Assembly: GCA_903892355.1 (NCBI GenBank)
Contig: CAITIE010000058.1
Location: 1-64,000, forward strand
Length of the DNA: 64,000 nt
Direction of reading: 5' to 3'
From: an uncultured Pirellula sp.
GTDB taxonomy: Bacteria > Planctomycetota > Planctomycetia > Pirellulales > Pirellulaceae
Both the position numbers and the translations under genes were made by a program. Shown piece after piece: positions 7,001 to 44,451 of this stretch. Position 1 is the stretch's first letter, and every line of letters begins with the position of its first letter. The notes beneath the pieces are model-generated. The model was not told where the DNA came from. It saw only the letters and a list, made by a program, of their open reading frames with translations, and did not search any database.

Positions 7001-8654
7001 CTCTCGCATTTCGGATCCCGCAAAACTGGATGCAACTATTGCTCGACTCAGCGGAGCAACCGCGGTGGATCCCGTGCAAAAAAACATCGCATTGGGTCGG
7101 ATGCAGCTGGGTCAAGGAAAATTGATGGACGCATTGGCTGCCTATCAAGCCGCCGAGGACCTTGGGGCGAAGCGGTCAGCGATAGCGATCCTGAAGGCGG
7201 AAGCGTTTCGCTCGCATCAGAAACTCGATTCGGCGGTCGATGGCCTCGAGGCCGCGGTGGAATTGGAGCCGCAGAATGGCCAATTGCGACGCTATTATGC
7301 GATGATACTCGGTTCGCGCGGTACCGTGGCGGATTGGGAGCGTATCGAACAGCTGCTCACAGCCTCTACATTCTCGAATTCCGTGGATGACAATAGACTC
7401 CTTGCAACTCTCTACATCCAGCGGGGATTACCTAGCGACTTGACCAAGGCTCGCCGCATTCTCGACAAGCTCGTCGTTGGCAAGTCGGGTAAATCCGACG
7501 AAGATAATTTTCGACTCGGTTTGTTATGCCAACGGAGCGCCCAGATTCAATTTGACCTCAAGAGGACCGTCGATGGAAATCGACTCCTCGAGGATGCCGA
7601 GCGTTATCTACAGCAAGCACTAGCAATCTCGCCGGAACGGGAGGATTATTTATATGCCTACGGGCGAGTGCTTCTGAAACGCAATCGGGTTCAAGATGCA
7701 CTGGCCCAAGCCGAGAAATTGTTGCGATTGGATCCCGATGCATTTACCTCCAATCTCTTGATGGCGAGTGCTCAAAAAGCAAATGGAAATAGCAGTGCAG
7801 CCACGGGAATGATCAAATCTTGGCAACTGCGATCACGTGAGAAAGCAGGCCAAACGAACGCCAAATCCATCGAGGTGCTCAGCAAATCAGTGCTCGGCTT
7901 TTTGACCATCCAAGATGTTGCTTCCTGCGATAGTGCGCTATTGGATCTGGAAGCATTGGACCCCAGAGCAGCGCTAATTGCACTGACTGTCATCACCAAA
8001 AATGAAGAGATCGAAACGCGATCTAGGGCCATCGACCTTCTTTTGAAACGCGGGATACGAGCTGGACCGGAGTCACCGATAGCCAGGGATATCGCTTTGG
8101 TTCTAGCTCAAGCATTGATCGAAGCTCCATTCAGCAACGAAATGCCATCTAGGCTTCGGCCTTTTCTTATCGAGGTACAAACAACGCAAGGTGACGCTCC
8201 CCGTTTGATGAAATTGATGGCGGAGTACTGGCTCGTAACCGGTGAACGGAGTAAATCTGTGGATGCCTACCGAAACGTTGTTCAATCGGGTACCAAGGAC
8301 CCAATCGTGCTGAATAATCTCGCGAATCTACTGAGTGAGTCCCCAGATGGCTTGGCGGAAGCACTTCAGACGATCGATCAAGCGATCTCTATCGCGGGGG
8401 AATTGCCTGACATTTTAGATTCCAAAGGAGCTATTTTGATGCGGATGGGTAAGCTAGAAGAGGCTGCCGGCATTTTCGAGAGAGCAGCCAAGATCGGCAC
8501 CAATCCCCTCTTCAGATTCCATTGGTACATCGCATTGATGCGGGCCGGTCGTACCGATTCAGCGTTGCGGATTAAAGAAGCGATTGATAAGTCCGCACTT
8601 CGCAGAATTCAGTTGTCGCCGGATGATGTCGAGGAGCTAGATAAGCTCCAATAA
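4032..8654 (+). CDS. Giant membrane-anchored TPR protein
   Basis: 1540 residues. A single hydrophobic segment near residues 34-51 (around LAILALGIPTIHLL) is preceded by a short N-terminal tail; the remainder is almost wholly alpha-helical with repeated tetratricopeptide signatures, e.g. LYEYLGAVYSSLGQWQKAAE and, near the end, DILDSKGAILMRMGKLEEAA. TPR solenoids serve as scaffolds, here probably exported or anchored by the N-terminal segment. It resembles the long TPR proteins seen in exopolysaccharide/PEP-CTERM loci, but no such genes are near. It follows the receptor kinase after 217 bp on the same strand, so co-expression is possible. No enzymatic motif seen. Confidence 0.85.
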   Translation: MADTPRFSSYILNQLSEAIERFGFDETRINRKLVIGTLAILALGIPTIHLLHSWQMTKVHRAMLQRVDSLRDEGKIGPAIELMDKYLRYKPEDAEKRVDLVELFHQKATSPAEVLSLVTLQYSTLGLCEANAKLNDRIGTLRRDLTERLIQVGRYEDAVEQIHLGSNSALDASLEKQLARSRMGLLLAKRSDVVSRYSKTSDPDWLKQFDAMHPADLLARSLIDIPGDLELTELFVELCFGDQEALKNALLATDSITDLQNRAKRKVEESLSKQPESPGAWLLNFRVMALLNQDLSRADVEIAVQRFPDNPQVQKEAALYFLRLALSEKERPDSPSNDAYRENDLTRAEDILSSLTASSRSKDASLYLAMGEVLEQKGKIKDAIRVWMDGTRVCSAPTWELYVRIAQKYLLDGELPQAREALQGMEEAIRRESIAFPVAIQTEAQRFANQQWVAYYLKAGETSKVERLLEGLRAGIATGSATTQANLYEYLGAVYSSLGQWQKAAEALEDAVRLRPADDKTLRSACQASIEAKLYSQARKQIESITDKSFMDWVRLASVSLELPIAVGATGESDVLKAESSLANARELMASDPKSREREWMVELLEYGIKLRTSNSEVQRHVIDEASAKLVQLCEANPGNLGMWQAHISALRKWGKTKESDDLLVAFQQRHPDSTLAITFRANKLAANGEEEEAQRILLENIKKNPENDLVLATLFQVKGDGDSLAKIVDVCVELYKNDVPKLLTIGQMACRIPARWNWSSGKGPGEEKAIDQRWNATVRKIEDRIRTLEGDSGTEWRILRARRLLTALDLKQTTDLPIIRDLSTYIIEKKPGSPTGYALEGAVLERMNEVDSATAMYLKAVGLGEPDMGVYERLTELLYAQGRFEDAQLVMNKLGRGLSRSARISSVALRLAASENDQDLSTLAKEGVELRPADPMAWVWYAQVLELTSRGASREDRSESLANARQALERAAAIAPSDLRVLNAEYIFYSRISDPAKLDATIARLSGATAVDPVQKNIALGRMQLGQGKLMDALAAYQAAEDLGAKRSAIAILKAEAFRSHQKLDSAVDGLEAAVELEPQNGQLRRYYAMILGSRGTVADWERIEQLLTASTFSNSVDDNRLLATLYIQRGLPSDLTKARRILDKLVVGKSGKSDEDNFRLGLLCQRSAQIQFDLKRTVDGNRLLEDAERYLQQALAISPEREDYLYAYGRVLLKRNRVQDALAQAEKLLRLDPDAFTSNLLMASAQKANGNSSAATGMIKSWQLRSREKAGQTNAKSIEVLSKSVLGFLTIQDVASCDSALLDLEALDPRAALIALTVITKNEEIETRSRAIDLLLKRGIRAGPESPIARDIALVLAQALIEAPFSNEMPSRLRPFLIEVQTTQGDAPRLMKLMAEYWLVTGERSKSVDAYRNVVQSGTKDPIVLNNLANLLSESPDGLAEALQTIDQAISIAGELPDILDSKGAILMRMGKLEEAAGIFERAAKIGTNPLFRFHWYIALMRAGRTDSALRIKEAIDKSALRRIQLSPDDVEELDKLQ

Positions 8655-8761
8655 CGCACTGCACGTTCAATGTTTTAGATACGCGTCAACATGAAGTACG
8701 ACGCGCTGCTTCATCGCGACCTATCGCGATTGAACGATGTCGTCGTTTATGACCCTACGGA

Positions 8762-10261
8762 TCAAAACAATTTTCTTTCGACACGAAAAACTGATGTTTG
8801 CCAAGGGACCAAATCCACAAAAAGCCCCCTTGCTACGAGATCCTCTCCATGCCACTCGTATTCTCGATCGTCGAAGTGATCATGAAGTTCCCAAAGACCG
8901 GTCCCTAATCCGGGGATACGCGACTCGAGCGTCGAGAGAGGAATATGGCATTGGCTCGCATGATGCGACCAATTGGTAACCACAATTAGTGAAGCCTCTT
9001 CGGGATGGGTCCATGCAAAGGCGATGACCGATTCAAGCGTGAGATTGCCGTCCCACGCTTGGCTGCAATCGAGCAGCGTCCAATCCCCCGTGCGTACAAC
9101 GTTTTGTCGGAGGATGCCGAGCAACCGGGTGTAGAAACATCTTGTTGCTTCCGAGTTTGGCTCGTCAGGCCCTCGGACCAAATGGGGAGATATCTTGATC
9201 CGACGCCCTTCTAACTGGCCTTGATGCATCAATCTCATGCCTGGCGACAAATACGCCATGGCTGCTGCAGATTGATGCTTGTCGAATGAGAACACGGTTG
9301 CTGCTCTAGGTTCGTCGTGATTCTCCAGAAAGCGGACCAGATGATTTTGGTAGTCGAGACCAGCGCGAAAATGCGAGCGGATGTCATTTGGCTCACCGTG
9401 CGCCAAGCGATCGTAAAGCCGCTTGTCATACGTGTAATCGAATCCTTGTTGTTGCAATTCCCATTCACGATCCCAATACACCTCGGCCATGAACACGAAT
9501 GACGGATTGTTTTCACGAACCGTATCGATCGTAGTAGGCCAAAATGGCTCCGCGTCGCGATTCCACGTATTCGAAAATACTTCAGGGAGGATGAGCATGG
9601 CCATATCGCAACGCACACCATCGCATTGCTTTGATAGGTTGATCAGTTCCCGTCTCATTGCGGCTTGAAGGTTTGGATTGGAGTAATCCAATTGCGTGGT
9701 ATCTGGCCATCCCGCAAAGTAAGGATCGCGTCCGTGCGCGAAAATGCGGCGTGTTTCCCCGTGCTGAAGCTCAAAGAAGTTTTCTGGGCTGTTTGCTCTG
9801 TCCGCTTCAGAGCCTTGGACAAAGTACTCGGGATGTTGCTCGAGCCACGGGTGATCAAGTCCCATGTGGTTTGGGACGAAATCAAGCATGAGCTTGATGC
9901 CATACTCTCGCATTCGATCTCGTAGACGGCCTAGTGCTTCATCGCCTCCTAGATCACGGTGCACGGTGTAGCTGGAAATGGCGAACCCCGAGCCCGCGAT
10001 ATCGGCTTCGGAGAGATCCGAAAGTGTCTCGCCAAATTCTCGCAACCACTCGGGATTCGTCCTTGAAACGCGACGTGACTCTGGGCCGGTTTGCCAAACG
10101 CTCAGCAACCAAACCCAGTCGAATCCGTCCTTCGCAATTTTTTCCAGATCCTCATTGGTGATGTCATCCAGCGTTACAGGACGCCCCATTTGTTGCTTTC
10201 GCGTTGTTAACCACACCCGTGTATTTAGCTGGAGCAACAATGGATAGCGGACGGTGTTCAT
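8762..10261 (-). CDS. GH13 alpha-amylase-family enzyme, cytoplasmic
   Basis: 499 residues without a signal peptide. It has the GH13 barrel motifs: DFVPNH (127-132), GVRCDMAML with the nucleophile Asp219, VFMAEVYW with the acid/base Glu260, and LENHDEPRA with the third carboxylate Asp316. The N-terminus (LNTRVWL) and the short C-terminal beta domain fit intracellular amylase-like or alpha-glucan/trehalose-metabolising members; the exact substrate cannot be read from sequence. It lies 56 bp downstream of pgi on the same strand, suggesting a role in storage glucan or disaccharide use that feeds glucose phosphates into glycolysis. Confidence 0.88.
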   Translation of the reverse strand: MNTVRYPLLLQLNTRVWLTTRKQQMGRPVTLDDITNEDLEKIAKDGFDWVWLLSVWQTGPESRRVSRTNPEWLREFGETLSDLSEADIAGSGFAISSYTVHRDLGGDEALGRLRDRMREYGIKLMLDFVPNHMGLDHPWLEQHPEYFVQGSEADRANSPENFFELQHGETRRIFAHGRDPYFAGWPDTTQLDYSNPNLQAAMRRELINLSKQCDGVRCDMAMLILPEVFSNTWNRDAEPFWPTTIDTVRENNPSFVFMAEVYWDREWELQQQGFDYTYDKRLYDRLAHGEPNDIRSHFRAGLDYQNHLVRFLENHDEPRAATVFSFDKHQSAAAMAYLSPGMRLMHQGQLEGRRIKISPHLVRGPDEPNSEATRCFYTRLLGILRQNVVRTGDWTLLDCSQAWDGNLTLESVIAFAWTHPEEASLIVVTNWSHHASQCHIPLSTLESRIPGLGTGLWELHDHFDDREYEWHGEDLVARGLFVDLVPWQTSVFRVERKLF

Positions 10262-38434: not shown

Positions 38435-39172
38435 ATGGTTTCCAATTTGGTGATTCCGCCGAACTGGTCTTCATTTCCCGAGGAGTTTCGACAGCGACTC
38501 GGAAGCACGGTTGGACGTCAACGGCTCATGCAATCGGAAGGTAGCATCTTGATTGTTGCACATTGGGTGCCTGAACACGACGAGGCTGGACGCCGGGGGA
38601 TTCTGTTTTGGCGTGATGGGTCAGGGGAATGGCGAGCGAGCAACGGGGATCCTGGCAAAGGAGCGCTGGGCATGCATCTCAACCGCTATGCGAAGCGTCT
38701 CGATGAATATGAAAGCGCGGAGGCAAAAGCCGTTAAGGCCGACCAGTACCTTTCCCTGCTCGAAGGCTTGGCCCCCGTCGTTCGTTCCAGCCGCAACCTA
38801 CTGGAGACGCTGGAAGAAGCCAGGAAAGCGATCCCGGACGATCGAACCCTCATCGACCATCGAGATCGAGCGTACGATCTTTCGAGACAAGCTGACTTGC
38901 TCTACGAATCGGCCAAAAACGCGCTCGATGTGGCCGTTGTTCGTCGTGCCGACGAACAAGCGCAGACAAGTCAAAAGATGATGCTAGCGGCCCATCGATT
39001 GAATATCCTTGCCGCGTTGTTTTTTCCCTTCGCGACGCTGGGTGCGGTGTTCGGCACCACGCTCACCGACAACTGGACGTGGGCGCACTCCGCCATCCCG
39101 TTCTTGCTCTACATCCTCGTGGGTGGTCTCACAGGTCTGTTGCTGACACGATTTGTGTCCCGTCCCGGTTAG
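38435..39172 (+). CDS. Two-segment membrane protein ending the flotillin operon (CorA-like C-terminus)
   Basis: 245 residues from the ATG at 38435, chosen for the upstream AAGGAG at 38418-38423; an earlier in-frame start at 38387 is possible. A soluble N-terminal domain (VIPPNWSSFPEEFRQRLGS, then ILFWRDGSGEWRASNGDPGKG) leads into a helical region. Two C-terminal membrane segments follow (ILAALFFPFATLGAVFG and SAIPFLLYILVGGLTGLLLT). The HRLNILAALFFP-FGTTL pattern recalls the CorA ion-channel end, where GMN would be expected, but GMN is absent. I do not recognise the N-terminal domain. It begins 63 bp after the ATPase stop on the same strand and is probably its membrane partner. Confidence 0.75.
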   Translation: MVSNLVIPPNWSSFPEEFRQRLGSTVGRQRLMQSEGSILIVAHWVPEHDEAGRRGILFWRDGSGEWRASNGDPGKGALGMHLNRYAKRLDEYESAEAKAVKADQYLSLLEGLAPVVRSSRNLLETLEEARKAIPDDRTLIDHRDRAYDLSRQADLLYESAKNALDVAVVRRADEQAQTSQKMMLAAHRLNILAALFFPFATLGAVFGTTLTDNWTWAHSAIPFLLYILVGGLTGLLLTRFVSRPG

Positions 39173-39684
39173 CTCGGGGATTTTGGGATGGGCGGCGAAG
39201 GGTGCGTAAACGAGGCTCTTGACTCTTTGCAACAGGTCGCGCTCTCCGTTTTCCTGATCGAACTCGAAATTGCCCAAGGGCGATCGCAGTGATTCTTAAT
39301 TTCGGTAATGTCTGATTTTTAGCGTCATGGATGGAGGGGCGCGGCACCTAGAACCTTGGCTGGCGGTTGTTGTGCAGCTGTGGCGAATCACTTTGGATTC
39401 GCCGAGCATCCACGGCATGCCCCTTCGAGTTGTTGCATGTCGGTCCCCATGAGAGCCTCCACTCTGCTTAGGAAGTGTTAGGAACGCGATGCCCAAAGCA
39501 ATCTGGTATCATTTGGTCAACGGATCGGCGATCCTGACGGCTTTGCACCAACAAATGGGTAGCACGTCGGCCATTTCTAGGGCACCAACATACCGCCGCT
39601 ACAATCCCTGGAACGGCAATAGCCTGATCGCGACGCACGACTGATGGTATTGCAAGCAAACTGTAACCACGGCACAACCACCAA
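39173..39684. other. 512-bp stretch without a credible gene
   Basis: Open frames here are short, on both strands and without recognisable motifs. A perfect 8-bp inverted repeat (GGCGAATC-6 nt-GATTCGCC) lies at 39382-39403; no T-tract follows. The region should contain the end of the flotillin operon transcript and the promoter of the ketosynthase operon starting at 39685. Confidence 0.5.
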
Positions 39685-40542
39685 ATGATGAGACGATTTC
39701 CCCACATCCCCGATCCGATCAACGATCTCTTTGACAAAGAGAAGTATCGTTGGGATTACATCTACTTAAGACCGATCATCATTTTCGTCTACTTCTTTTA
39801 TAGATGCCTAGTGTTTCCATTGAAATTCCTGGTACATCGCTTCACGTTGGGCTGTGAAGGATATCTCGTCGATCGAACGTTGTCTTTCGGGATGAAGTAT
39901 CTCGCACGAACCGAAGCGGTTGAGTTGCTCGTTCGCCATATACAGATCGAACCATTGATCTACCGGCACTTGCTATCGACGTGCGCTCACACTCCCGAAA
40001 GTCCTCCACCGAGATTTAATGGGATCGACGCTAATTTCGATGTCGACTGTATACGCGATGTGTACCGCAACAATATGACTATCGGGCACGATCAACTCTC
40101 CTACGAGTTTGGCGACCGATTTGAAAAGCATTGTTTTCTGGAAAATCTATCACAAATCCGAGAGCGAGTTCCCCAAGACCATAATCAATTCAGCAAGAAG
40201 GCAATTGACGAAAATCGCCGGTATTCATTCCAATTATTGGGTCCAACTAATGTTTCGATCATGATTGTCTTCGTGATCACTATCTTTGCCGACCTAAGGA
40301 CTGCGATGAGGGCATTGAACTCGTTCGGCTCCGATTCGATCGTCTTATGGTGCCTGAAGCATATTTATGCCAACAACACCGAGGCGTTGGTAGACCTCGA
40401 TTTTTTCATGCAGTCAGAAACAAACAGGGGACATTTCGGTAGCAGCCCATTTTTCTCCAACCCCAATCAGTATCTCTACTACCACATTGTGTTCGATGAA
40501 TGTGTCTACGACATGCTTAGGACCATCAAACCCCGCCAATAG
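39685..40542 (+). CDS. Unrecognised membrane-associated protein, first gene of ketosynthase operon
   Basis: 285 residues. There is a hydrophobic stretch near the N-terminus (about 25-52, YLRPIIIFVYFFYRCLVF) and a second near residues 193-207 (SIMIVFVITIFADL). Between them lies a polar region rich in Asp, His and Glu (NNMTIGHDQLSYEFGDRFEK, then HNQFSKKAIDENRRYS). I do not recognise the family. A short gap (68 bp) separates it from the FabH-like gene. The charged patch between hydrophobic stretches is compatible with a membrane-associated oxidoreductase or acyltransferase, but no known catalytic motif can be claimed. Confidence 0.75.
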   Translation: MMRRFPHIPDPINDLFDKEKYRWDYIYLRPIIIFVYFFYRCLVFPLKFLVHRFTLGCEGYLVDRTLSFGMKYLARTEAVELLVRHIQIEPLIYRHLLSTCAHTPESPPPRFNGIDANFDVDCIRDVYRNNMTIGHDQLSYEFGDRFEKHCFLENLSQIRERVPQDHNQFSKKAIDENRRYSFQLLGPTNVSIMIVFVITIFADLRTAMRALNSFGSDSIVLWCLKHIYANNTEALVDLDFFMQSETNRGHFGSSPFFSNPNQYLYYHIVFDECVYDMLRTIKPRQ

Positions 40543-40610
40543 TATTCGCATGAAATTTCCACCTGTTAGCACTCAATCCTGAACCAAATACGAAATCCAA
40601 GGGTATCAGA

Positions 40611-41717
40611 ATGTCCACCTTCATAACGGGTACCGGATCATTTTTACCTGGTCCACCGATAGACAACAACTCGATCGAGAAATACTTAGGAATCATCGAA
40701 GGGGAGCAATCGGTGAGACGTCAAGTTCTTGGCGTGAATGGGATACGTACGCGTCACTACGCTTTGGATACGGACCAGAACGAAACGTTCGACGTTTACC
40801 AGCTTGGAGTTTTGGCTGCTCAAAACTGCTTGAAGGGCTCAGCGTCAATCGCTCCGATCAGTTATCTCTCGGCAGGAACAACCCATGCTCCCTATTCCGG
40901 ACCTGGAATTGCTTCGATTGTGCATTCGCAACTTGCACAACAAGGAATCTTACTGGAGCCAGTCGAGGTGAATTCGAACTCGGGGATTTGCACGTCGTCG
41001 GCGACTGGCGTGATCAATGCATTTCGGGCTATTCAGTCCGGCGTTCATCAGTCGGCGCTATGCATCGGCGCTGAGCAATCGACCCAAGCACTTAAGTCCA
41101 CGGCTTTTCGCATCATCAAAGATACCGAAACTATGGAACGGGATCTGAAGAGGTCACAGTGGTTCATGTCGGTGTTTCTCAGGTTCATGCTCTCCGATGG
41201 AGCAGGCGCCTGGCTTCTTGAGTCCCAAGCTCGAGAGGATCGCACGTGCTTTAAAATCAACTGGACTTTTTCACGCTCTTATGCCTCTGAAGCGCCGTTG
41301 TGCATGCACTATGACAATCGTTCTGCCCGTCTGAGCCAGGATGTTGATATCCTATCGAAGCACTTGTTCGTCTTTGCGAGAAGGTTCGTTACGGAATGCT
41401 TCGAGATGCACCAGGAGAAGCTTGACAACTATCAGATTATCCTTCCACACCTGTCGTCATATTTCTTCCAAAGAAAAATGGAGCGATTGTTAACGCAGCT
41501 GTGTGGTGACAAGGGTACTCAACCTAGTACGTGGACGAATCTAGCCACGGCAGGCAACACTGGTGCTGCGAGTATTTTCGTGATGCTGGACCAATTCGTT
41601 CGTACACAGCAATCGAAGGCTGGCGATCGTTTGCTATTGTTCATACCCGAATCCGGTCAATTCAACTTCGTCATGATTAGCCTTACGCAAGTTAATAGCA
41701 TCCAACCTACCGACTAA
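40611..41717 (+). CDS. FabH-like ketosynthase (KAS III family)
   Basis: 368 residues with the thiolase-fold triad of KAS III: Cys127 in SNSGICTSSATG, His280 in IILPHLSSYF and Asn316 in LATAGNTGAASIF. KAS III enzymes join an acyl-CoA or acyl group to malonyl-ACP; relatives outside fatty-acid synthesis make quinolones, olefins or other small products. The usual housekeeping fab genes are absent here, and the sequence around Cys127 is diverged, so a specialised role is more likely than primary fatty-acid initiation. It stands between an unknown membrane-associated protein and a flavin monooxygenase 5 bp downstream. Confidence 0.88.
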   Translation: MSTFITGTGSFLPGPPIDNNSIEKYLGIIEGEQSVRRQVLGVNGIRTRHYALDTDQNETFDVYQLGVLAAQNCLKGSASIAPISYLSAGTTHAPYSGPGIASIVHSQLAQQGILLEPVEVNSNSGICTSSATGVINAFRAIQSGVHQSALCIGAEQSTQALKSTAFRIIKDTETMERDLKRSQWFMSVFLRFMLSDGAGAWLLESQAREDRTCFKINWTFSRSYASEAPLCMHYDNRSARLSQDVDILSKHLFVFARRFVTECFEMHQEKLDNYQIILPHLSSYFFQRKMERLLTQLCGDKGTQPSTWTNLATAGNTGAASIFVMLDQFVRTQQSKAGDRLLLFIPESGQFNFVMISLTQVNSIQPTD

Positions 41718-41722
41718 TACCT

Positions 41723-43363
41723 ATGTCAAAGAAACTTGTCATCGTTGGATGCGGCAGCAGCGGCCTGATTACGCTCAAGTACGCATTGGACGAACTTCGC
41801 GATTGGGAGATCATTGCGTATGAGGCCTCCAGTAAGATCACAGGATGTTGGGGAAGGCCCCCAAGTGGTTTTGTCTCGACATCAACAAAGTACACGACAC
41901 AATTCGCCTGTTATCCCTTGTACGACGCCGGCGTCCGTCGAGACCTTTCGTCGGCATCTCCGTCTTTTCAATATCCAGAGTTTTTCTGCGACGGGGAATA
42001 CGGCGAATACCTCGAGAAATTCGCGAACCACTTCGGCCTCAAGAAGTTCATCTGTCTGAACACGAAGGTTTCGCAACTTCGAAGGAACAGCGATGGGAGG
42101 TGGGATTTGCAATTGTCGCATGTATCTCCGCCCGACGTTCGACGCGATCAAGGGAGCACGGAAGAATCGATTGTTTGTGATGCAGTAGTCATCTGCACGG
42201 GTTTAGCCGACGCGCCGAAACCGCTCAAGGCGGAAGCGAAAGTCTTGACTCGACTTGATTTTGGAGACTCAATCCGAAATCAAAAAGTTGTCGTAGTAGG
42301 AGGGGGGGAATCTGCAGTGGATGTTGCTCGAAGATTGGCGGGCCCATCGCTCAACAACCAAGTGTGGCTTTCTGTCCGTACGGGAATTCGGGTCAGCCCG
42401 AGATACCATCCGATTCGTGGCGTCCCCTCAGACTTTCTTCGCAATCGATTGCTCTTATCGTTTGACGCTGGGCTACGAAATGTTGTTGGTCAACGGTTCG
42501 TCGAGTATCGAATGCGTTGTCGCAAGGTACTGCAGCGGTTATTCCCAGCCAATCAAAAACTTCGCAGTTCCACACATGAAGTGAACCAGCATGTCCGTGA
42601 CCGATGGGCCTTGCGTTTGACAGAGTCCGCAAAGGACAGCCTCTTCAACATGTACCACAACAAAAGCGACGACTTTCTTGGGGATGTCGCGGAGGGCCGA
42701 ATCCGTATTATCGGAGGAAATAGCGACCCTTCGTACCGAAGGTTCTACGCGTTCGGATCTAGCGACGTAATGAATATTGATCCAGACTTGATCGTGCCAG
42801 CAATCGGATACGCATCGCAGCTAAAGGCATTGACCAACGATGAAATTGCCTTTCGGGATTTCTATTTGGGTATTCGACATATCGAGTATGCCAGCCTATT
42901 CCTCGTTGGGATGACACGCCCCATCATTGGAAACATTCCATCCATTAGTGAGATGCAGGCTCGTTATATCGTTTTCCATTTAGCCAAACAACCTGCGGAT
43001 ACTTCAGTTATCAAAAAGATCCATCATCGCAATCGCATCGAATTGGAACGCCGTTTTGCAAACCTAGACACCACCAACGTCTATCCAGTTGAAATGTTTC
43101 CTTACTGCGATCAACTCGCACGTGAGATGGGGTGTTTTCCAAGCTTGCGAAAACTTCGATCACCAATCCAATACATCCGGACAGCGTTAAGCCCAGCCAC
43201 CACAATGCACTACTTTAACGATAGGGAGATGCCAAGCAATTCCTCGCCCATCTTCAGCCCGTTGCTCATAACGCTCCTACTGCTCCTCTTGAAGCCGTTG
43301 GACGTGGTGGTTCGAGCATGTCGACATTGTTCGAAAATTTCTCAAATCCGGTTGAAGCGTTGA
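41723..43363 (+). CDS. Flavin-containing monooxygenase-like protein with C-terminal membrane anchor
   Basis: 546 residues with two dinucleotide-binding loops: FAD at GCGSSG (9-14) and NADPH at GGGESAVDVARRL starting near 193. CTG at 158-160 and a late IVPAIGYAS match the ATG-type motif of class B flavoprotein monooxygenases. Such enzymes use NADPH and O2 to oxygenate ketones, amines or thiols. Near the C-terminus FSPLLITLLLLLLKPLDVVV forms a membrane anchor, unusual for bacterial members. Starting 5 bp after the ketosynthase stop, it is almost certainly translationally coupled. An oxidation of the ketosynthase product at the membrane is a reasonable inference. Confidence 0.85.
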   Translation: MSKKLVIVGCGSSGLITLKYALDELRDWEIIAYEASSKITGCWGRPPSGFVSTSTKYTTQFACYPLYDAGVRRDLSSASPSFQYPEFFCDGEYGEYLEKFANHFGLKKFICLNTKVSQLRRNSDGRWDLQLSHVSPPDVRRDQGSTEESIVCDAVVICTGLADAPKPLKAEAKVLTRLDFGDSIRNQKVVVVGGGESAVDVARRLAGPSLNNQVWLSVRTGIRVSPRYHPIRGVPSDFLRNRLLLSFDAGLRNVVGQRFVEYRMRCRKVLQRLFPANQKLRSSTHEVNQHVRDRWALRLTESAKDSLFNMYHNKSDDFLGDVAEGRIRIIGGNSDPSYRRFYAFGSSDVMNIDPDLIVPAIGYASQLKALTNDEIAFRDFYLGIRHIEYASLFLVGMTRPIIGNIPSISEMQARYIVFHLAKQPADTSVIKKIHHRNRIELERRFANLDTTNVYPVEMFPYCDQLAREMGCFPSLRKLRSPIQYIRTALSPATTMHYFNDREMPSNSSPIFSPLLITLLLLLLKPLDVVVRACRHCSKISQIRLKR

Positions 43364-43434
43364 GCGAAGCTTTGGTACTAACGTTTAGCCATGTCTTTTG
43401 GGATAACGATGCTCGTGCGTACAACTATATGATT

Positions 43435-44451
43435 TCATTCCGCCACGTTGAGCCATTCCGCAACCTGTTCTGCAAAATAAGTCAAGATGCAGCTTGCTCC
43501 GGCGCGGCGGAATGCCATCATGCTTTCGAGCACGCATTCTTTTTCGTTTAGAGCACCGGCGCTAGACGCCATCTTGAGCATCGCATACTCGCCGGATACT
43601 TGATAGACCGCCACTGGGATCGAGAACGAATCGTGCAATCGGCGGACAATATCCAGGTATGGCATGCCAGGTTTCACCATCACGATATCAGCACCTTCTT
43701 GAATATCGAGAGCAACTTCTCGGATCGCTTCGTCGGTGTTGGCTGGATTCATCTGGTACGTTTTCTTCGAGGCACCACCTAGGTTTTTTGCGGACCCGAC
43801 GGCATCTCGGAATGGTCCGTAAAAGGCCGAGGCGTATTTCGCAGCGTAACTCATGATGGTTACGTGCTGAAACCCTGCGTCATCGAGCGCCTTGCGAATC
43901 GCGCCGATGCGTCCATCCATCATGTCCGATGGTGCAATTACCGTCGCCCCTGCGCGGGCTTGGTTGATCGCTTGTTCGCATAAGATACTGACCGTCTCGT
44001 CATTTGCGACGTAGTTGTCGATGATGACTCCGTCATGACCGTGCGAGGTGTATGGATCGAGAGCAACGTCGCAAACGATGCCCAGTTTGTCGCCACATCG
44101 CTCGCGGATGGCTCGCGTTGCACGGCAGATCAAATTCTCAGAATCGATGGCATGCCGACCATCTTCGGATTTTAAGCCCGGTGGTGTGACCGGGAAAATC
44201 GCAATCCCGCCGATCCCGAGCGATGCTGCTCGTTCCGCAGCTTCGGCTGCTAAGTCAACGCTCATGCGTTCGACCCCAGGCATGGTTTTGATCGGCTCGG
44301 TGGACCCTTTGCCATCGATTACAAAGATCGGCCAAATGAGATTGGCGGACGAAAGGTGGGTCTCTTGGACCATTTGCCTCACCCAATCCCATCGCCTTAA
44401 TCGTCGAAGTCGGGTCGCGGGGAAAGAGCCGAATGAAGACAATGGTTGCAT
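43435..44451 (-). CDS. hemB: Delta-aminolevulinic acid dehydratase (porphobilinogen synthase)
   Basis: 338 residues, normal for HemB, which condenses two molecules of 5-aminolevulinate into porphobilinogen in haem synthesis. The metal/substrate loop reads VALDPYTSHGHDG, lacking the three cysteines of zinc-type enzymes, so it belongs to the Mg/K-dependent type. The Schiff-base lysines are in MSYAAKYASAFYGPFRDA and IVMVKPGMPYLD. It faces the ketosynthase operon tail-to-tail and the DUF1080 gene head-to-head. Standalone gene. Confidence 0.97.
   Translation of the reverse strand: MQPLSSFGSFPATRLRRLRRWDWVRQMVQETHLSSANLIWPIFVIDGKGSTEPIKTMPGVERMSVDLAAEAAERAASLGIGGIAIFPVTPPGLKSEDGRHAIDSENLICRATRAIRERCGDKLGIVCDVALDPYTSHGHDGVIIDNYVANDETVSILCEQAINQARAGATVIAPSDMMDGRIGAIRKALDDAGFQHVTIMSYAAKYASAFYGPFRDAVGSAKNLGGASKKTYQMNPANTDEAIREVALDIQEGADIVMVKPGMPYLDIVRRLHDSFSIPVAVYQVSGEYAMLKMASSAGALNEKECVLESMMAFRRAGASCILTYFAEQVAEWLNVAE

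Follow-up and report, generated by a model that had tools for sequence, protein, structure and literature searches.

Organization of the locus

The window analyzed here is a 64,000-nucleotide stretch from an uncultured Pirellula sp. (Planctomycetota; assembly GCA_903892355.1, contig CAITIE010000058.1, positions 1 to 64,000). At positions 39685-43363 it contains three genes on the forward strand, which encode a DUF6999-like protein of a membrane-associated subtype at the edge of PF22523 (gene 1, 39685..40542, 285 aa), an StlD/DarB-like beta-ketoacyl synthase III (gene 2, 40611..41717, 368 aa, with Cys127, His280 and Asn316) and an FMO-superfamily flavoprotein with a C-terminal hydrophobic segment at residues 512-530 (gene 3, 41723..43363, 546 aa). 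The ORF coordinates agree with a previous sequence-only reading of this DNA, which described three genes separated by 68 bp (genes 1 and 2) and 5 bp (genes 2 and 3). Gene 1 may instead start at 39688, since the second ATG is the start in several homologues.

Among the neighbors scanned, a 261-aa ORF without a match over the cut-off and a DUF3686/AAA protein lie upstream, and hemB (opposite strand), a 3-keto-disaccharide hydrolase and a cytochrome c protein follow downstream. The sequence-only reading had claimed that carrier protein, reductase and tailoring genes were missing, and nothing among these neighbors was identified as a carrier protein, reductase or cluster gene; judged by eye, none of the 18 ORFs of at least 60 aa over 39100-43500 looked like a carrier protein. 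The proposal of a compact ketosynthase-monooxygenase operon drawing on primary acyl groups fits these results. A promoter/terminator scan found nothing exceeding shuffles.

The StlD/DarB-like ketosynthase

The gene 2 product had been considered a diverged KAS III enzyme with an intact Cys-His-Asn triad. The triad (C127, H280 and N316) was invariant in all 12 aligned sequences; judged by its sequence, however, the ketosynthase is StlD/DarB-like and not a generic KAS III. Its best PDB match was StlD (5gk0, 2.1e-46), far ahead of the first non-StlD match (8.4e-08), and it matched NCBIfam NF005293 (StlD/DarB) at 3.5e-76. It also carries the family residues E119, L190, R191, S195, S282, S283, P346 and E347, which were found in at least 14 of 15 window-type rows and at least 13 of 14 other StlD/DarB-like rows, but in none of the four FabH-like rows, as assigned by Pfam.

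The enzyme is nevertheless divergent. Its NF005293 score of 256.7 bits was below the cut-off of 450, which was passed by L072 (515.5) and L073 (507.7) and also failed by L074 (369.5), L075 (402.4), L080 (372.1) and L081 (381.9). Window-type ketosynthases have P94, M186 and Q350 where the other StlD/DarB-like rows have D (14/14), E (13/14) and R (14/14), and StlD itself has D, E and R at these positions as read from the alignment. In addition, a tree gave them a long stem of 2.4 changes per site; its deep forks were weak, one FabH-like row had a very long branch, and the ketosynthase L008 (interrupted by a stop within the range used) and a number of near-copies had been omitted. On the basis of the low score, the long stem and the three replacements, the enzyme may make something other than a cyclohexanedione. 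A single clade of all DUF6999-linked ketosynthases was not rejected by the AU test (p 0.451), which does not by itself demonstrate monophyly.

The FMO-like flavoprotein

The gene 3 protein matched PF00743 (1.4e-24) and, in the PDB, ancestral FMO2 (6sem, 4.4e-17), and contains two Rossmann motifs (GxGxxG at residue 9 and GGGES at 193). Its best 19-residue Kyte-Doolittle segment, 512-530, had a value of 2.06. The classical FMO fingerprint is FxGxxxHxxx(Y/F), and FxGxxxH was missing in all seven FMO-like proteins examined. The sequence-only reading had suggested a membrane-anchored flavin monooxygenase; the protein is FMO-like, lacks the classical fingerprint and has the hydrophobic segment near its C-terminus. 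The top Foldseek matches of its structural model (mean pLDDT 56.5) were FMOs, in agreement with the sequence, and did not distinguish the reaction type; Baeyer-Villiger enzymes appeared among the lower matches of this low-confidence model.

These features bear on a possible, though not likely, alternative in which the ketosynthase has drifted to a head-to-head Claisen condensation that yields a long-chain ketone, beta-keto lipid or pyrone and no cyclohexanedione, and the FMO-like enzyme then carries out a Baeyer-Villiger reaction or hydroxylation. Such a drift would be in line with the long stem, the replacement of D, E and R at 94, 186 and 350 and the score under the StlD/DarB cut-off, and the lower Foldseek matches could reflect the Baeyer-Villiger step. 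However, StlD is the nearest solved relative by a wide margin, the family residues are retained, and the best FMO matches are ancestral mammalian-type FMOs instead of Baeyer-Villiger enzymes.

The DUF6999-like protein

The first protein, previously regarded as impossible to place, could be assigned to the edge of DUF6999 (PF22523), with an E-value of 5.1e-07 and 29.4 bits against a cut-off of 27. The same gene scored 24.1 bits, below 27, in the whole-genome PF22523 search. All 11 rows of alignment A1 matched DUF6999 at E 0.01, with L036 scoring 16.1 bits (under the cut-off), and the orthologue L066 had no match at 0.01. When the window subtype was compared with canonical DUF6999 by hhalign, the probability was 6.1 (E 0.0061). 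Membership in DUF6999 is therefore borderline, considering the genome-search score, L066 and the hhalign probability.

An alignment of both subtypes (30 sequences minus seven near-copies or partial rows) contained 13 columns identical in 23 rows, ten of which were H, D, N, E or R; R84, H85, H135, D136, N212, D217, N247, H250, H267 and E272 were identical in 23/23 rows. These shared residues suggest that the DUF6999-like protein is an enzyme and, given the composition of the invariant columns, we propose that it is possibly metal-dependent. Neither profile nor single-sequence search found a PDB relative up to E 10, and the AlphaFold2 model from 11 rows (mean pLDDT 41.1) was unusable. A divergent haem-oxygenase-like oxidase (PF14518) was also considered and rejected (hhalign probability 0.4).

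Alternatively, this protein might be a non-enzymatic membrane scaffold, exporter-like protein or carrier that holds the ketosynthase at the membrane, which we regard as unlikely. Two 19-residue Kyte-Doolittle segments of the window protein, 31-49 (1.96) and 184-202 (2.09), and the best values of 10 orthologues (1.84-2.52) are consistent with such a role, as is the lack of an enzyme family or solved relative in our searches. On the other hand, canonical DUF6999 proteins are less hydrophobic (1.19-1.76, n=7), and the residues common to both subtypes are mostly of the kinds listed above.

Distribution and conservation of the operon

Among the 297 genomes sampled from the class, 13 contained the window-type ketosynthase. 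Gene 1 was present at the locus in 12 of these 13, the locus of the remaining genome ending at a contig end, and the DUF-KS-FMO order was kept in 11 of 12 loci examined on genome contigs, which bears out the expectation that the three genes would be found together elsewhere. The ketosynthase and FMO genes overlapped by 4 bp in six of ten loci measured. The operon was also detected in one Lentisphaerales genome (1 of 288 genomes of that phylum). Its occurrence across sampled genomes is patchy, spanning families and one other phylum. A PF22523 profile search at E 0.001 overlooked four operon genes of genus g61; silence of this model therefore carries little weight, and an orthologue search was used instead.

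Comparison with L033 gave dN/dS values of 0.11, 0.15 and 0.19 for genes 1, 2 and 3. The nearer L032 gave 0.16 and 0.12 for the first two and 0.91 for the FMO gene, the last from very few changes, and dS was saturated with L034. Because the genes recur together and show dN/dS of 0.11-0.19 against L033, their grouping is not due to chance. That the locus is decaying or selfish and at present functionless in the window's species appears most improbable: the patchy distribution, a gene 1 reduced to 42 codons in G088, a 0.93-kb insertion inside the FMO gene of G033, the FMO value against L032 and the somewhat low G+C (0.47-0.51) would agree with it, but the three window genes are all intact and the L033 values argue against it.

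A P450 orthologue was found in 9 of 16 genomes with a window-type ketosynthase. In the window's own genome, the sole match (30-31 percent, in a frame with a stop) was not accepted as an orthologue. Since a P450 is part of the system in many of the relatives, the window holds a minimal form. Candidate DarA, defined by position and a flavodoxin-like start without a family model, was absent from the window's own genome and occurred in two of 297 genomes, neither carrying the window-type ketosynthase; as a control, the search recovered a candidate DarA in G124 at 58 percent.

Canonical DUF6999 beside other ketosynthases

Canonical DUF6999 adjoined an StlD/DarB-like ketosynthase in eight of 297 genomes, other than those with the window-type operon, and a PF14518 (haem-oxygenase-like) domain was fused or adjacent in the loci checked. 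The same three components were found on a Pseudoalteromonas plasmid. No description of this cluster was found in the literature searched. Based on the two separate gene arrangements, proteins of the DUF6999 type appear to associate repeatedly with StlD/DarB-like ketosynthases. A family whose name carries no function is thereby tied to a defined enzyme class, so that its function becomes testable with two or three genes.

Proposed pathway and comparison with known systems

We tentatively favor, at a chance somewhat short of even, a minimal specialized-lipid pathway in which two acyl units are condensed, the head group is tailored and DarA is replaced. It is supported by the closeness of the ketosynthase to StlD, its retained family residues, the recurrence of the gene grouping, the canonical DUF6999 loci, the P450 orthologues and the lack of a candidate DarA; counting against it are the divergence of the ketosynthase, the borderline DUF6999 placement, the missing FMO fingerprint and the FMO dN/dS of 0.91 against L032. 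DarB and StlD join two acyl units that fatty-acid metabolism supplies as thioesters, according to a passage of PMC5515871. The window ketosynthase would likewise combine two such thioesters, giving either a 1,3-cyclohexanedione with two alkyl chains or a similar condensed 1,3-diketone. The two-chain head group of this product would then be oxidized, aromatized or otherwise tailored by the FMO-like enzyme and the DUF6999-like protein, which are both probably membrane-located and would stand in for DarA, and the P450 of relatives that have one would add further oxidation. The sequence-only reading had raised the possibility of an oxidized lipid or signal molecule; no member of the operon family was found to have any described chemistry. 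It is more doubtful that DUF6999 represents an undescribed metal-dependent family serving StlD/DarB-type ketosynthases, which in Planctomycetota and Lentisphaerota, acting alongside the FMO-like enzyme (and a P450), would yield a new class of oxidized two-chain lipid or signal, replacing DarA. The operon points to an uncharacterized small lipid pathway in Planctomycetota.

In Planctomycetota alkylresorcinol synthesis, as outlined in part of PMC10896814, a type III PKS extends an acyl unit with malonyl-CoA to give a lipid with one long alkyl chain. Those clusters, from the same phylum, also concern a phenolic lipid fed by fatty-acyl units, but their assembly is unrelated and their chain single. 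"Resorcinol" clusters are given as counts or predictions in the relevant passages of two species descriptions (PMC7717058, PMC13241502). The DarA-DarB system makes dialkylresorcinol and the flexirubin head group (Fuchs 2013, as cited in passages of PMC3992019 and PMC8406957). It is likewise compact, with an StlD/DarB-like ketosynthase fed by primary acyl units; the window operon differs in having DUF6999-like and FMO-like proteins (plus a P450 in relatives) instead of a candidate DarA, and a ketosynthase below the family cut-off that lacks three conserved charged residues. StlD, which belongs to the isopropylstilbene pathway of Photorhabdus, is the nearest solved ketosynthase and has the triad and family residues in common with the window enzyme, but the three charged positions are switched in the latter and its partner genes in Photorhabdus presumably differ from those of the operon. 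Finally, the cluster of ketosynthase, PF14518 and DUF6999 in planctomycetes and Pseudoalteromonas resembles the operon in placing an StlD/DarB-like ketosynthase beside a DUF6999 protein, whereas it has a haem-oxygenase-like domain instead of the FMO and a canonical, less hydrophobic DUF6999.

Organization and distribution of the operon

The operon consists of three ORFs placed head to tail on the same strand: ORF 1 (39685-40542), encoding a DUF6999-like protein (protein 1), ORF 2 (40611-41717), encoding a StlD/DarB-like ketosynthase (KS), and ORF 3 (41723-43363), encoding an FMO-like flavoprotein. The gaps of 68 bp after ORF 1 and 5 bp after the KS ORF bear out the compact layout described for 39685-43363 in the sequence-only reading. 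The window represents bases 1-64000 of contig C58 (76,310 bases), from a genome of 6.18 Mb (158 contigs, 96.9% complete); the closest named relative found was an uncultured Pirellula MAG, with a KS identity of 97%. The operon is preceded by a 261-aa ORF and by the gene for a large DUF3686/AAA protein; on the downstream side, a convergent hemB comes first and is followed by genes for a 3-keto-disaccharide hydrolase and for a cytochrome c protein. The G+C content at 40001-43000 was 0.47-0.51, compared with 0.51-0.57 for most 1-kb steps of the window; low values also occurred at 23-25 kb (0.475-0.498), and thus the dip is not unique to the operon.

Joint occurrence of the three genes elsewhere, which the sequence-only reading had left to a neighbourhood search, was observed at 11 of 12 contig loci and in 12 of the 13 KS genomes among 297 genomes of the class, counts that are not independent because the genomes are related by common ancestry. 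The contig loci came from a scan of further genome contigs that revealed 12 relatives of the KS: the order was DUF-KS-FMO in 11 (L038 and L042 being cut by a contig end), and L043 begins inside the KS gene. When the 297 genomes were searched with the KS, 42 gave some match, 13 of them at E-values of 1.6e-119 or lower and the remaining ones at 2.3e-40 or worse. Eight of these 13 genomes had the order DUF-KS-FMO and four (G016, G051, G090 and G227) KS-FMO-P450-DUF; in G284, a contig end adjoins the KS. The locus and genome sets overlap, since L036, L037 and L039 are in genomes G298, G297 and G299, respectively. The KS and FMO genes overlap by 4 bp at 6 of 10 loci measured. Locus L037 belongs to a Lentisphaerales MAG, the only one among 288 genomes of its phylum in which the KS was found.

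Orthologues of protein 1 were identified in 13 of the 297 genomes, namely 12 of the 13 KS genomes and G088. Compared with G049, the gene in G088 is reduced to its first 42 codons (locus L102, 7846-7971) and the other operon genes are gone, a natural deletion of the operon. Searches with the KS and protein 1 also found the operon missing from three genomes (G027, G031 and G083) of genus g3 in the window's family; the operon is therefore accessory. In four genomes of one genus (L060-L063), it is followed by other-strand genes, encoding in L060 a methyltransferase, a radical SAM/DUF3641 protein, a DUF2064-glycosyltransferase and a fatty-acid hydroxylase, a set resembling an arsenosugar-lipid cluster.

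Ketosynthase and proposed chemistry

StlD/DarB (NF005293) was the top NCBIfam match of the KS (3.5e-76, 256.7 bits), and its cut-off of 450 was not reached. The best PDB matches were two StlD sequences (5gk0, 2.1e-46), the following match being at 8.4e-08. The Cys-His-Asn residues noticed earlier are indeed intact, C127, H280 and N316 being invariant in 12 of 12 sequences aligned. We compared the window type with 14 other StlD/DarB-like rows and 4 FabH-like rows. The family-distinguishing residues E119, L190, R191, S195, S282, S283, P346 and E347 were retained, whereas P94, M186 and Q350 took the place of D (14/14), E (13/14) and R (14/14) in the other StlD/DarB-like rows; by our own reading of the PDB-search alignment, StlD also has D, E and R there. 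Six more columns, all uncharged, were switched. In a 33-row tree, all 15 window-type KS formed a single clade (100/100), whose stem measured 2.4 changes per site; the deeper forks were weakly supported.

DarB is reported to form 4-carboxy-2,5-dialkylcyclohexane-1,3-diones from two activated acyl units, and StlD likewise condenses two such units into an isopropyl-styryl analogue (PMC5515871). By analogy, the window KS would probably join two primary acyl units, and the FMO-like and DUF6999-like proteins would probably tailor its product. Given that the NF005293 score is sub-threshold and that D, E and R are replaced, the KS may instead catalyse another condensation. No description of the operon was found in the literature searched (mostly open-access), including the available parts of PMC10896814, PMC3992019, PMC7717058, PMC13241502, PMC8406957 and PMC5515871.

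DUF6999-like protein

Protein 1, which the sequence-only reading could not place, matched Pfam DUF6999 (PF22523) at 5.1e-07 and 29.4 bits (cut-off 27), and 11 of 11 rows of its alignment matched at E 0.01. This placement is borderline, because a whole-genome PF22523 search gave protein 1 only 24.1 bits, orthologue L036 scored 16.1 bits, orthologue L066 was not matched at 0.01, and hhalign of window-type against canonical DUF6999 returned a probability of 6.1 (E 0.0061). The link is supported by the same kind of partner gene and by 13 columns identical across both subtypes in 23 of 23 rows (drawn from 30 sequences). In 10 of these columns (R84, H85, H135, D136, N212, D217, N247, H250, H267 and E272 in protein 1), the residue is H, D, N, E or R. 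Canonical L074 shared 15-20% identity with window-type rows. The suggested membrane association is consistent with the best hydrophobic segment (2.09 in the window, 1.84-2.52 in 10 orthologues; 1.19-1.76 in seven canonical proteins). AlphaFold2 gave no usable structure for protein 1. In searches of mostly open-access papers, the term DUF6999 was unmatched and PF22523 was not mentioned among the matches listed.

In 8 of the 297 genomes, canonical DUF6999 adjoins a StlD/DarB-like KS whose open reading frame spans 626-673 aa. A Pfam scan detected a C-terminal haem-oxygenase-like domain (PF14518) in two of these frames and two further ones align with it, the check covering four of the eight. On a Pseudoalteromonas plasmid, a KS, a gene with the annotation "iron-containing redox enzyme" and DUF6999 lie side by side; the redox enzyme had no Pfam match at 0.01 and was 43-46% identical to the fused domain. 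PF22523 also matched in Caulobacter vibrioides in a profile search.

FMO-like protein and P450

Protein 3 was FMO-like in Pfam, its best solved match being ancestral FMO2 (4.4e-17), and contains both Rossmann motifs; the FMO fingerprint was absent from all seven proteins of this type examined. As to the membrane anchor of the earlier description, the C-terminal hydrophobic segments (2.06 in the window, 1.27-2.79 in six orthologues) make it likely in most of these proteins and doubtful in L034. Between the window (41723-43250) and the Pirellula MAG (L032), the FMO gene had very few synonymous differences (dS 0.013, dN 0.012), compared with dS of 0.09-0.23 for the DUF, KS and hemB genes, which suggests either recent recombination or the presence of a patch common to both MAGs. 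At L067 (G033), a 0.93-kb insertion (~8150-9080) interrupts the FMO gene and carries a 283-aa ORF that matched no Pfam family at 0.001.

A P450 gene lies within or adjoining the operon at 11 loci, three of them covered by a Pfam scan, and the haem-binding motif was present in 10 of 10 P450s inspected. Orthologues (2.5e-156 or better) occurred in 9 of 16 genomes with the KS, eight of them at the locus; that of G298 is on a separate contig, 14 kb of which contained no KS, DUF or FMO. Genome searches found no orthologue in the window's genus (two genomes) or in genus g61 (five), and G000 and G148 had a distant P450 only.

Comparison with DarAB-type loci

Two genomes, G061 and G124, had a KS above the StlD/DarB cut-off. 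Its neighbour is a flavodoxin-like protein, which we take by position for a candidate DarA; no family model gives it a name, and it was found in no other of the 297 genomes (control: G124 recovered at 58%). These loci place a candidate DarA beside the KS, whereas the window-type operon has DUF6999-like and FMO-like proteins without one. Two Streptomyces plasmids (L081 and L091) carry a StlD/DarB-like KS, an acyl carrier protein and a relative of the candidate DarA, together with an FAD-dependent monooxygenase or oxidoreductase, an SCP2 protein and a P450.
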